Of a stretch of 64,000 nucleotides of DNA, positions 9,104 through 48,762 are shown in pieces. The notes under the pieces were generated by a model. The model saw nothing but the letters and a program-made list of their open reading frames with translations. It was not told where the DNA came from and ran no database searches. This DNA is from Bifidobacteriaceae bacterium (GTDB lineage: Bacteria > Actinomycetota > Actinomycetes > Actinomycetales > WQXJ01): the NCBI GenBank assembly GCA_031281585.1, contig JAITFE010000045.1, positions 1 through 64,000 of the forward strand, read 5' to 3'. Each line of letters opens with the position of its first letter. Within the stretch, counting starts at the first letter, position 1. A program made the translations under genes and the position numbers.

Positions 9104-10812
9104 GGCGCCAGCGCCACCGCGCTGGCCCCAGAAGCCAGGGGCTCCCAGATCCGGCGCTGCGGCGAATACGCGAACAACCCGCCCGAACGCCCCGAGACGT
9201 ACAGCTCAGTCGGCCCGCGCCCCGCCGCCAGGGCGACCGGCGGATCGGTCGAAGACTTCAGATAGGTGATGTCTCCCCCCACGGTGAATACCGCCGGCAC
9301 CAGTTCCTCCGGAACCACCGGAGCGGTCAAGAAGGCCAGCGACACGTCGTCAGCCCAGGTCAAAGACTGCACGCCGGTGGCGAACGAGGCCACCGTCAAC
9401 GGCCCGGTCAAACGCCAAGGCACCGCCCGCTCCTGCCGGACAATGCCGCTGATCCGCACTTCGATCCGGTCCCCTACCGCCACGGCCAGCGCCAACCGGG
9501 CGCCGTCGCGCGCCGGCGCCAAAGCCACCACCCGAAGGCCGTCCAGCCAAGGCGCCCCCAAGCGGAACGGTTCCCCCTCGGCGCTAAAGGCCACCACAGC
9601 ATCGGCGGCGGCGGCCCAAATCCAGCCCAAACGGTCGAACACGGGCGGGGCGGTGAACTGCCCCACGCTCTCAGGCGGGGCCAAAGCGCGCGGCGGCTCG
9701 CCGATCCTGTCGATCAGGTCTATCCGCCCCTCGACCAGGCCGGCCATCCGGCCGAGCGAGTGATCGACGGTCAGCGACTCCCACCCGGCCGCCGCCTCGG
9801 TTCCCTCGATCAGGTTCGCCTGTCGGTCGTGGTACCGCCAAACGCCCGCCTCGCCCAGGTAGAACGGGCCCTCCACGCCGACCGGGTTGATCTCCAGGCC
9901 GGCCGCCTGACCCACGTCCAAACGCACCGACTCGACCTGCAGTTCGACCGAATCGACCGTCGGGAGGGCCGTCAACGAAGATTTGAGACAAGCCAACACC
10001 GTGGCGCGGGCCGTTTCCGAAGCCCGCGAAATGGCGCTCGACAGGTTCACCACCGCCACCCGGTTGGTCACTTTGACCGTCTCCGTCATCAAGCGCGTGC
10101 CGGACGGCACCACCGCGCTGACCGCGCCCGTCAAATACGGCGGCGGCCCGTTCAGGAACTCCTTGACCGCCGCCGTGGCCGCCCTGGCGCGGGTGAACAT
10201 GCGCTGGTCAGGCACCAAAAACTGGCCATCGGCCGAAGGGAAGTAGATCCTGGTCGCCACATAGTCGCCCCAGAACACGTCCGCCGGGATGACAATCCCG
10301 TCCGGCAGGTCCGAAATCCGCCACTGCGAATCCTCGTCCTGGCTCAACGACAGGGTTTCGCTCCACGCCTCCGGTTCCCGCATGGTGTAGCGGCCCGACT
10401 CGTCGACCACGCCCACCTCCTTGACGGTCAAAGCCACCCGCCCCAACTGGGTGCCCGTCTCCGCCAGCACCGGCTCGGCGCCCGACTGGTAGACCCGCAC
10501 CGAGGCGAACGGGTTCCACACCGCCGCCGCCTCAGCCGTCAGATAGGAGCGGGCGACCTTGAAATCGTCCGAGCTCCCCGCCAGCATCGCCTGCAGAAAA
10601 CCCTGGACAATCTGGTCGAGGTTCGCGTCCTTCACAGGCGGCGCCGCCAACCCCTGGACGTACAGCTCTTCCCGCCCCTCGTCCGGCTGGCCCTGCTGGA
10701 CCGGCCCCGACTGGGGCAGCGTGGCGCAGCCCGCCGCCATCGCGGTGACAACCAGGAGCACGATGCCGACCGGCCGCCTCCCAGCCTTCCCCGACCGCCG
10801 CTCTGGGTTCAT
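9100..10812 (-). CDS. lpqB: LpqB lipoprotein, MtrB accessory protein
   Basis: The 570-aa lipoprotein has a signal peptide with lipobox MAAGC (Cys29), then a GerMN-like region (about residues 60-290; FLNGPPPYL, LTALPTVDSVELQVE) and a C-terminal beta-propeller-like region. In mycobacteria LpqB interacts with the extracellular part of MtrB and tunes MtrA phosphorylation and cell-envelope homeostasis. ATG 10812 overlaps the mtrB stop in an ATGA; longer frames upstream read into mtrB and are rejected. comF follows with a GTGA overlap, so expression follows the mtrAB operon. Length and domain order are as expected for the family. Confidence 0.93.
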   Translation of the reverse strand: MNPERRSGKAGRRPVGIVLLVVTAMAAGCATLPQSGPVQQGQPDEGREELYVQGLAAPPVKDANLDQIVQGFLQAMLAGSSDDFKVARSYLTAEAAAVWNPFASVRVYQSGAEPVLAETGTQLGRVALTVKEVGVVDESGRYTMREPEAWSETLSLSQDEDSQWRISDLPDGIVIPADVFWGDYVATRIYFPSADGQFLVPDQRMFTRARAATAAVKEFLNGPPPYLTGAVSAVVPSGTRLMTETVKVTNRVAVVNLSSAISRASETARATVLACLKSSLTALPTVDSVELQVESVRLDVGQAAGLEINPVGVEGPFYLGEAGVWRYHDRQANLIEGTEAAAGWESLTVDHSLGRMAGLVEGRIDLIDRIGEPPRALAPPESVGQFTAPPVFDRLGWIWAAAADAVVAFSAEGEPFRLGAPWLDGLRVVALAPARDGARLALAVAVGDRIEVRISGIVRQERAVPWRLTGPLTVASFATGVQSLTWADDVSLAFLTAPVVPEELVPAVFTVGGDITYLKSSTDPPVALAAGRGPTELYVSGRSGGLFAYSPQRRIWEPLASGASAVALAP

Positions 10813-12383
10813 TGGGCAACCTCCTGGATTGACGGCGCCGGACCCAACTCCAGCGGCGGTTCGCCGACCTGGCCCCCCGCCCTGCGCGGGACCACCAGCC
10901 GGAAGACCGCGCCGACCCCCTGCCTGCCCCACACGTCCAAGTTGCCGCCGTGCAGGTTGGTGTCCTCCAACGCGATCGCCAGGCCGAGCCCCGTTCCCCC
11001 GGTGGTGCGGGCGCGCGCCGGGTCGGCCCGCCAAAACCGGTCGAAGACCCGCTCCAACTGCTCTTCGCTGAGACCCACCCCGTCGTCCGCCACGACAATG
11101 GCGATCGCCTGGTCGCTCATGGCGAGCTCCACCAAGACCCGGCTCGAGGCGTGCTCAATCGCGTTGACCACCAAGTTCCTGATGATCCGGGAGATCCGTT
11201 TCGAGTCCACTTCGGCCTGGGCCGGGCTGTTCGGCATGCGGCTGGTGACGGCGATGCGGTGGTCCGCCGCGAGCGGCGCCACCGCGTCCAGCTCCCAGCC
11301 GACCAGCGCTCTGAGATCCACCCGTTCCGTGTCAAGCTGCGCGGCGCCCGCGTCGAAGCGGGAAATCTCCAGCAAATCGGACAGCAGCGCGTCAAAACGG
11401 TCCAGTTGGTTGGCCAGCAACTCCGCCGACCGCGCCACGTCCGGCGGGAACCGGTCCCGCGCCGCGTAGATCAGGTCGCCCGCCATGCGGATCGTCGCCA
11501 GCGGGGTGCGCAACTCGTGCGAGACATCAGACACGAAGCGCCGCTGCAGCTTGGACAGATCCTCCAGTTGGCCGATGTGCCGTTGGATGGCCGCCGCCAT
11601 CTCGTTGAAGGATGCCGCCAGAGTCGCCATCTCGTTGTGGCCTTTGACCGGAATGCGCTCCCCCAGCGCCCCGTCCGCGAGTTTCGCCGCCACCTGCGCC
11701 GCTTGGCGCACCGGGCGGACCGCCTGAAGGGTGGCGATCCAAGTCACCAGGACCACGATCACGACCACCGCGACCGCCGAACCCGCCAGGACCTGCGCGA
11801 TCAAGCTCATCGTGGCTTGCTCCGGCCCCAAGTCGTAGACCATTACCAGCACGTAGGTGGTCGCCATCAACGTGACCGCCTGGGCCACCGCCACCCCCGG
11901 ATTGGTCGGCTGGCCGGGCTCTGTCGGCAACGGGACCGACTGCCAGACCTGCTGCCCGCCGGACCGGGCGGCATCGCGCAACGCGTCCGAGGCGACGTCC
12001 CAAAGCTGGGGGTCCGTGAAGATGGCTGAAATGGCGCCGGCGCCGGGGTCATCCGGCGGCAGAAGCGAAACGGCCCGGGCCGAGGAGCCGACCGAGGAAA
12101 TCTGGCCGATCGTGTCGCGGGCCATGGTCTCCGCCGTGATGGGCGAGGCGGCGGTCGAGGCGTCAAAGATGTCTTGGGCGGTCGCGGCCAGGCGCTGCGC
12201 CTCCCGCAGCACGTCGTTCACTCTGGCGTTGAAGATGCCGGACCTGACCTGCCCGGTCAGCGCGATCCCGACCGCCGTCAACGCGACCGAGGACACCACG
12301 ATGACCGTCACCATGACCCTGGCCTGGAGCGAACGCCGCACCAGCCCGATCAGGCCCCGCTTAGCCCTGTCGGGCTGGGTCAT
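10809..12383 (-). CDS. mtrB: Sensor histidine kinase MtrB
   Basis: The 524-aa protein has two membrane segments (residues about 21-44 and 195-220) around an extracytoplasmic sensor region, followed by a HAMP linker, a HisKA domain with phospho-accepting His in FVSDVSHELRTPL, and a HATPase_c domain with N-box NLVVNAIEH and G-box GTGLGLAIA. All catalytic boxes are intact. It phosphorylates MtrA and in actinobacteria controls division, peptidoglycan turnover and osmotic response. The start ATG overlaps the mtrA stop (ATGA) and the stop overlaps lpqB, so the three form a coupled operon. Confidence 0.95.
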   Translation of the reverse strand: MTQPDRAKRGLIGLVRRSLQARVMVTVIVVSSVALTAVGIALTGQVRSGIFNARVNDVLREAQRLAATAQDIFDASTAASPITAETMARDTIGQISSVGSSARAVSLLPPDDPGAGAISAIFTDPQLWDVASDALRDAARSGGQQVWQSVPLPTEPGQPTNPGVAVAQAVTLMATTYVLVMVYDLGPEQATMSLIAQVLAGSAVAVVVIVVLVTWIATLQAVRPVRQAAQVAAKLADGALGERIPVKGHNEMATLAASFNEMAAAIQRHIGQLEDLSKLQRRFVSDVSHELRTPLATIRMAGDLIYAARDRFPPDVARSAELLANQLDRFDALLSDLLEISRFDAGAAQLDTERVDLRALVGWELDAVAPLAADHRIAVTSRMPNSPAQAEVDSKRISRIIRNLVVNAIEHASSRVLVELAMSDQAIAIVVADDGVGLSEEQLERVFDRFWRADPARARTTGGTGLGLAIALEDTNLHGGNLDVWGRQGVGAVFRLVVPRRAGGQVGEPPLELGPAPSIQEVAQ

Positions 12384-47480: not shown

Positions 47481-47591
47481 AGCGCCTCGGCGGCCTGTGG
47501 CACGCGCCAATCCCCACCGGAGACCCAGGCCACCTGCGCCCGCCCGCCCAAGCGAGACCCGTCAAAGCCATCCCATCGTGAAAGCGGCGCC

Positions 47592-47832
47592 GAATGTCAT
47601 TTCTTGTCTGCGGCGCGCGCCCAGTGTTGTTTCTTATCTTGCTCTCGGCGGCGAGTGTAACCTCATATCTGCCCCGGACCGCCCAGTGTAGGTCTATATC
47701 TTTGAGTGTTTCCCGTCTTGCCTGGTCACAGGCTCGCAGGTGAATTCGGGCTAGATGAAATCTGACATTCGGACGCCGAACCCAGATAAAATCTCACATT
47801 CGGCGGAAAAGCCCAGACAGAATTCTGCATTC
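47592..47832. repeat. Array of seven 18-bp motifs, four direct then three inverted, 31-bp period
   Basis: The motif is SARTGY-N8-RTCT. Plus-strand copies start at 47592, 47622, 47653 and 47684; minus-strand copies occupy 47753-47770, 47784-47801 and 47815-47832. Spacing within each set is 30-31 bp, and all seven keep the 8-bp internal gap. The inversion point is about 47727. The organisation matches multiple transposase-binding repeats at the ends of IS21-type elements, here almost touching, but no transposase gene is present. Confidence 0.75.
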
Positions 47833-47984
47833 GCCTGCGGGACCCGCCCGCCGGCCCCGACCTGGAAATGGTCACGGCCCCTGTTTCCAGACCCCGCCCC
47901 CGTGATGATTTGGCCCCTGGCGGCGCTGGTTTTGCTTGCCGGCGCGGTCGGGGGTGTTCGCCGCGCCCGGCCGGGCCCCCGTCG

Positions 47985-48015: not shown

Positions 48016-48261
48016 GTGGCCACCGCACCGCCGAACGCTCAACGCTTCACGCACAAGACCATCACCGTGCCGACCGACCTGCTGGAAGACGTGGACCAGA
48101 TTGTCGGCGGCGGGAATCTGTCCGCGTTCGTCTCGGACGCCTTGCGGCAGGCCGTCCAGTCGCATCACCGCCGCGAGATTCTGGCCGAATACGAGGCCGA
48201 ACACGGACTGGTCCCAGCCGAAGAGGTGGCGGCGTTGGCCCAGGAGCTGGCCTCCGCGTGA
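48016..48261 (+). CDS. Ribbon-helix-helix antitoxin
   Basis: The 81-aa protein has a ribbon-helix-helix start (RFTHKTITVPTDLLEDVDQIVG..NLSAFVSDALRQAV) and an acidic helical tail (EILAEYEAEHGLVPAEEVAALAQEL) of the kind that wraps the toxin. GTG 48016 is chosen for the GGAG at the right arm of the operator. Its stop overlaps the toxin start in a GTGA, the standard coupling of antitoxin before toxin. Its role is to bind and neutralise the PIN toxin and repress the operon. Confidence 0.82.
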   Translation: MATAPPNAQRFTHKTITVPTDLLEDVDQIVGGGNLSAFVSDALRQAVQSHHRREILAEYEAEHGLVPAEEVAALAQELASA

Positions 48262-48662
48262 CGCCGCCCGTCCTGGTCCTCGACTCGCACGGCTTCGCCG
48301 CCCTAGCGCGGCCCACCGACCGAGGTGCGCGCCTGCTGGCCGCCGCCGAATTGAATGGGCAAAGGATCGCGGTGCCGGCTGTCGTCTTGGCGGAGACGAT
48401 CAGCGGGCGGGCGGAAGACGCCGTTTACTGGCGGGCTCTCAAAGGCATGACCGTCTGCGACACCACCGCCCGCATTGCCGCCCGGGCCGGCGAGCTCAGA
48501 ACCGCCGCGGCCCGGGCGCGCCGCAAGAAGCGCGACTTGACCGTCGACGCCATCGTCGCCTCGACTGCCTACGACCTGGCGCCGGCCATAATCCTCACCG
48601 GAGACCCAGGCGACATGTGCCTGCTCACCCAAGCGCGACCCGCCAAGATCATCCCGGTGTGA
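48258..48662 (+). CDS. vapC: PIN-domain toxin (VapC-like)
   Basis: The 134-aa ribonuclease has the acidic PIN residues Asp9 (VLDSHGF), Glu46 (LAETI), Asp97 (VDAIVAST) and Asp116/Asp119 (TGDPGD), all needed to hold magnesium. PIN toxins usually cleave tRNA or rRNA and stop translation. GTG 48258 overlaps the antitoxin stop. Length and motifs are complete, so it is likely active. It lies beside a probable mobile-element remnant, consistent with horizontal transfer. It is convergent with nrdF, with 100 nt between and no clear terminator. Confidence 0.85.
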   Translation: MTPPVLVLDSHGFAALARPTDRGARLLAAAELNGQRIAVPAVVLAETISGRAEDAVYWRALKGMTVCDTTARIAARAGELRTAAARARRKKRDLTVDAIVASTAYDLAPAIILTGDPGDMCLLTQARPAKIIPV

Positions 48663-48762
48663 CCGCGGCGCCGAACGGGCGGCCCGCCGCAACTCGGATC
48701 GGCTAGCTCTCGGCCCCGAGGCGGTGAACGCCGTCCAGCCCGGCCCGCAAGGACCGAAGCGG

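Follow-up and report, generated by a model that had tools for sequence, protein, structure and literature searches.

The array of short repeats in the window (the whole 64-kb stretch of DNA analysed here) is probably, though we hold this with modest confidence, the relic of a non-autonomous, MITE-like mobile element carrying an array of predicted binding sites. It belongs to a family of arrays with a common geometry, which is dispersed over the genome of the window and has been gained locally, and in a related genome members of this family lie within TIRs with target duplications at both sides.

The array comprises seven 20-bp units spanning 47591-47833, which were located by a repeat finder and a PWM scan. 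Four units start at 47591, 47621, 47652 and 47683 on the + strand (spacings of 30, 31 and 31 bp) and three lie at 47752, 47783 and 47814 on the - strand (spacings of 31 and 31 bp), so that the four direct and three inverted copies of the preliminary description were recovered within one base by both methods. The units, the core between them and the neighbouring features are as follows.

47509..47594, + strand: copy of the PIN gene 3' end (48590-48675) at 80% identity, adjoining the array
47591..47610, + strand: unit 1, outermost left, CGAATGTCATTTCTTGTCTG (PWM 27.5 bits, repeat finder)
47621..47640, + strand: unit 2, CCAGTGTTGTTTCTTATCTT (repeat finder, PWM)
47652..47671, + strand: unit 3, CGAGTGTAACCTCATATCTG (repeat finder, PWM)
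47683..47702, + strand: unit 4, inner left, continuing into the core, CCAGTGTAGGTCTATATCTT (repeat finder, PWM)
47703..47751, + strand: asymmetric core of 49 bp, conserved half TTTCCCGTCTTGCCTGGTCACAGG
47752..47771, - strand: unit 5, inner right, CGAATGTCAGATTTCATCTA (repeat finder, PWM)
47783..47802, - strand: unit 6, CGAATGTGAGATTTTATCTG (repeat finder, PWM)
47814..47833, - strand: unit 7, outermost right, CGAATGCAGAATTCTGTCTG (PWM)
48016..48261, + strand: small RHH-like ORF, an antitoxin-like neighbour (sub-threshold NCBIfam match YlcI/YnfO; no Pfam match)
48258..48662, + strand: PIN-domain toxin-like gene, a neighbour (Pfam PF01850)

Unit 4 is the inner end of an 89-nt conserved block (E 8.8e-21), the conserved core stretch at 47702-47731 is TTGAGTGTTTCCCGTCTTGCCTGGTCACAG, and the consensus of the three-unit arm is CGAATGTAGGTTCCTATCTG. 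The middle of the array, previously taken for a junction, proved instead to be a conserved 49-bp core with an invariant centre spacing of 69 bp. The units of the array were the sole PWM matches of at least 20 bits within the 64 kb and order-2 Markov simulations of the window (n = 10) gave zero such matches, figures that are descriptive only because the PWM was trained on the same array family. An independent control over the entire genome gave 93 matches for CGARTGTNNNNTTNNNTCTG with up to one mismatch vs 1 for the reversed control. The earlier impression that the array is too regular for chance is upheld, as is that of an AT-richer patch by the GC content of 53.7% in the array vs 69.7% over the window.

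The genome of the window (G000) has at least 24 more arrays that had been overlooked, and altogether at least 25 core-centred arrays are dispersed over it. The first further sites came from a BLAST search of 47500-47880 against relatives. When 396 genomes sampled from the order were searched with a profile of the 89-nt centre that used sequence only (R1), G000 had 25 sites, G001 12, G009 4, G004 2 and the rest none; no array was found in ~380 other genomes of the order. With a wider core profile (R3), G003 joined the list, as did further sites in G004 and, in G001, a second subfamily. Its weaker matches in G006 were arrays on reading of the sequence, and many of its weaker matches elsewhere (E ~0.001-0.05) are probably fortuitous or reflect just the short core motif. 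The congeners with arrays are G001, G003, G004, G006 and G009, where G001 and G009 are the Bifidobacteriaceae MAGs Cd354_bin95 and Cd354_bin28, respectively. The Bifidobacteriaceae include termite-associated lineages (PMC11707648), which, together with general knowledge, suggests that the host genus consists of termite-gut organisms, and the array family is apparently confined to a single genus of Bifidobacteriaceae from termite guts and previously undescribed. Whole-array BLAST against plasmids and phages returned no match. Spread across phyla was also considered and rejected, the pattern matches in Thermincola and others lying in coding sequence, Rhs-like or other, that held no arrays.

The arrays sit in intergenic DNA and hold no genes, and those that were read have a common layout of direct units, core and inverted units, often with extra blocks back to back. 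At least eight unit families flank one common core. In family A (166 units), the same-strand step was exactly 31 bp in 96 of 107 cases and the direct-to-inverted step was 69 bp in 17 of 21, with two more at 68 and 70 bp. The short direct-to-inverted steps of this family (36 and 38) fell between blocks, so that 17 of the 19 usable centre gaps measured 69 bp, and its inverted-to-direct step was 24 bp in 17 of 17 cases. The unit period was 31 bp in families G004, G006, G001-2 and G000-B and 41 bp in families G001-1, G009 and G003, and the non-A families had a centre of 68–71 bp and outer steps of 24, 35 or 46 bp. Because the steps differ by ~10 bp (31 or 41), the units stay on one helical face. 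The units were rich in information and the spacers poor (0.2–0.6 bits per column), and the core aligned gap-free in nearly all copies from six unit families, its second half being fixed in length and variable in sequence. Free spacers together with a half-core of fixed length would be the mark of a protein complex formed over several sites. A CRISPR array was discarded as a candidate, given that the units are degenerate, the spacers are 11 bp long and the orientation switches.

Local gain was seen in the gap between nuoN and a polyprenyl synthetase gene, where an array of ~600 bp was present in G000 only and the two genes adjoined each other in nine of nine relatives; their aligned ends were 13 bp apart in G004 vs 917 bp in G000. 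At the locus of the window array, the alignments of yibE/F and nrdF were 139 bp apart in G004, which had neither the array nor the RHH-PIN module there. Conservation of the array in place across relatives, named in the preliminary description as favouring an operator or origin-like function, was not observed, arrays having been gained locally as at the nuoN locus. The arrays C48 and C40 are near-copies of each other in reverse complement, spacers included, and their flanks are unrelated. In G001, the recently amplified copies of two unit families have imperfect TIRs in common (GGCTCTTCGGGATGATGTGTGGGTG on one side and GGCTTCGCCGGGATGTGTGGGTGG on the other), and complete elements were delimited as follows.

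G001:C41, 435-1092: complete element of 658 bp, with GAAATCTGC (9 bp) duplicated at both sides, enclosing a core array
G001:C81, ~10204-10983: complete element of 780 bp, with CCCAAACCGA (10 bp) duplicated at both sides, enclosing a core array

At L198/L235 of the same genome, a right end and a left end were separated by 10 bp, resembling a back-to-back insertion. The TIRs and the target duplications of 9–10 bp around the arrays make the G001 elements MITE-like, and since two unit families occur in one shell, the units are probably not transposition ends and probably form an internal module of this mobile element. In G000, the TIR sequences of G001 were absent from all loci searched, a combined search for TIRs and TSDs around the arrays, window copy included, yielded nothing above mismatched-flank controls, and the array flanks had no common sequence beyond the arrays. 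The target-site duplication that had been proposed as a check around the window array was likewise not detected. In the light of these searches we infer, rather than demonstrate, mobility of the window copy, which would be an element of the same kind whose outer TIRs have decayed or are different.

The mobile-element ancestry proposed in the preliminary description is therefore supported by the G001 TIRs with their 9–10-bp duplications and by the gained array in G000, but the IS21 identity proposed along with it is not. Two juxtaposed IS21-type ends with the internal genes lost would have several inward direct repeats per end (4 + 3 units in the window), as do IS21 TIRs, which contain two or more repeats (PMC10122671), and TGT is found close to the outer edge of family A units. 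We nevertheless regard this origin as very unlikely. The units were absent from the istB-bearing contigs of G000 (located by Pfam; four checked, L027-L030), and a check with a two-unit profile and a one-unit pattern placed almost all unit matches inside core arrays, with ~4 of 93 outside the main arrays and no separated ends. Moreover, outward-flipped units lie beyond inward ones in the arrays, the true ends of the G001 element are a different TIR outside the array, and the core at the centre is conserved and keeps a constant spacing, unlike a random deletion junction. Intact elements with istA/istB between matching ends, which had been suggested as proof, were not found, nor was any other transposase between matching arrays, and the 49-bp centre is too short for a gene. 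The operator array that had been offered as the alternative fared no better when taken as the operator of the adjacent RHH-PIN toxin-antitoxin module: this module begins ~180 bp downstream of the array and PIN or PemK genes stand beside several arrays, but most arrays have no adjoining toxin-antitoxin module and 2 of the 37 PIN genes in G000 lie within 1 kb of the analysed arrays, which makes this role extremely improbable.

A host nucleoprotein scaffold for chromosome organisation, partition or regulation, in which the array would serve a host protein as a centromere-like site or multi-site operator and the mobile shell of G001 would be a mere carrier, would account for a centre that is fixed in length though half of the core sequence is free, for the helical phasing of 31/41, for the conservation of the core over diverging units and for the intergenic position of the arrays. 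It is rather unlikely in view of the loci, which are not conserved (the array at nuoN is missing from all nine relatives), of the whole-array copies with unrelated flanks and of the neighbours, which are housekeeping, transport, toxin-antitoxin and restriction genes and form no regulon. Less plausible still is a hairpin or cruciform element of the BIME/REPIN type whose inverted arms fold as single strands. The inverted overall layout, the intergenic and dispersed positions, as of BIMEs, and the IS3-family ends beside some arrays of G004, REPs being known targets of IS elements (PMC1525189), agree with such folding, but no excess pairing of same-level units or opposing spacers was found: left-right unit identity was 0.702 at the same level vs 0.697 at different levels, and opposing spacers matched at 0.33 vs 0.38 for spacers from different arrays. 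No Rfam family was found in the window region either. As neither the spacers nor hairpin pairing are conserved, protein-binding sites are favoured.

In the MITE-like element that we favour, the functional module would thus have the form (direct sites)n - 49-bp core - (inverted sites)n, with each 20-bp unit a putative protein-binding site. Successive sites would be separated by three (31 bp) or four (41 bp) turns of the helix and share one face of the DNA, with both arms directed toward the core, and with this one-face spacing and inward polarity a multimeric DNA-binding protein could span both arms and the core. A putative transposase acting in trans may have spread the elements to intergenic sites, and the unit sequence would have diverged by lineage and subfamily while the core and the geometry were kept; both protein binding by the units and transposition in trans are predictions from sequence. 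A further reading, less likely than not, is that the conserved core is the fixed hub of a nucleoprotein complex with MITE-borne phased sites diversifying by unit family within one genus, and that the core motif is common to actinobacterial phages and linear plasmids and serves the same putative factor, in which case the arrays would represent a new class of cis-acting element. The geometry is exact to 1 bp around one core despite at least eight unrelated-looking unit sequences. The arrays offer a natural series for the study of co-divergence between a DNA-binding protein and its sites, and through them one might learn what the motif that recurs in actinobacterial phages and plasmids does.

Bacterial interspersed repeats are mostly palindromes or short tandem repeats. 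The arrays resemble MITEs in being short, gene-less, dispersed, intergenic and multi-copy and, in G001, in being bounded by TIRs and target duplications of 9–10 bp, but most of the element body is taken up by ~20-bp sites that flank a conserved core in an ordered series with a period of 31/41 bp, and TIR and TSD were not found in the window genome. The ends of Tn7 and Mu carry several direct transposase-binding repeats each and are mutually inverted. The arrays share with IS21, Tn7 and Mu the several direct repeats per side and the mutual inversion of the sides, whereas their 'ends' are 49 bp apart around a conserved core, gene-less and, in G001, inside other TIRs. REP, BIME and REPIN sequences are dispersed extragenic repeats in both orientations that form species-specific classes and have IS insertions nearby (PMC3116915, PMC1525189), all of which applies to the arrays as well. 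However, the array units are not hairpin palindromes, the pairing of opposing units is not selected and a fixed 31/69/24 spacing about the core is kept. No RAYT (Y1) transposase was found among the flanking genes scanned beside the examined arrays. Streptococcus BOX elements are modular, their constant ends enclosing tandem boxB modules of varying number (PMC3049150), and the arrays are likewise modular interspersed repeats with tandem internal modules of variable number; in contrast to BOX, their constant part is central, with variable tandem parts in opposite orientation on either side, and the tandem unit sequence varies between array families.

The copy of the PIN 3' end at the window array loses its similarity within the first bases of unit 1, the outermost one, which suggests that the array and the toxin-antitoxin cassette were duplicated or inserted together. 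The neighbours of the arrays are mixed (transporters, CTP synthase, HSP70, nuoN, FtsY-like, toxin-antitoxin, methylase and AbiEi/DUF559-like genes), with no gene common to all array neighbourhoods among the flanks scanned. PIN genes adjoin the window array, C154, G001:C476 and, by eye in the sequence, G009:C391. AbiEi/DUF559-like genes with an array just upstream were observed at G000:C82 and G001:C199 (L037 5702-6589 and L081 921-1844), their proteins being 50% identical. Arrays were located within 1 kb of a contig end in 7 of 25 cases in G000 (expected 2.1), 11 of 18 in G001 (expected 4.5) and 4 of 7 in G004 (expected 0.3). The G004 arrays C67 (L094) and C4 (L191) adjoin the same IS3-family-like end and C35 (L192) a similar one, recalling the insertion of IS elements into REP elements (PMC1525189); the fragment next to C67 encodes an rve_3 integrase core. 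In both clear G004 cases, the 3' end of the IS was oriented toward the array.

Outside the genus, a motif resembling the core, CGTTTNCGCWGGTCAGAGGCTTG, is repeatedly present between genes close to the termini of actinobacterial phage genomes and Streptomyces linear plasmids (e.g. L215, L216, L217, L219-L224). The 30-nt core-derived query TTTGCGTTTGCGCTGGTCAGAGGCTTGCGG, which is biased to the G000-B/G004 form of the core, matched 293 phage records at E<=1, and a reversed-core query with altered flanks matched 0; the core query of family A gave no such phage or plasmid matches. Many of the phage matches fell between genes in Mycobacterium and Gordonia phages, 35–80 bp (or ~300 bp) away from the right genome end, some directly followed an HNH gene, and several plasmid matches were near the ends of Streptomyces linear plasmids. 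The phage matches are not independent because many of the phages are closely related, and the individual E-values are weak (~0.004–0.6). No arrays were found around the phage and plasmid matches, and a common origin or function of this motif and the array core is a lead only.

Other irregularities were observed near individual arrays. At G001:C23 (L197), the array is cut just after the core at ~917 and unrelated sequence continues to the contig end; a group II intron or other RNA was rejected at this junction, where Rfam gave no match. G004 and G000 also contain another short dispersed sequence, CACAATCACCGTCCCC..., which lies close to arrays and in gaps between genes (L093, L011, L102). The array at G001:C58 (L087) is interrupted, ~60 bp to the left of its core block, by ~315 bp of sequence with GTGGCCACCCACAGGG-like repeats that is extra in comparison with its near-copies.
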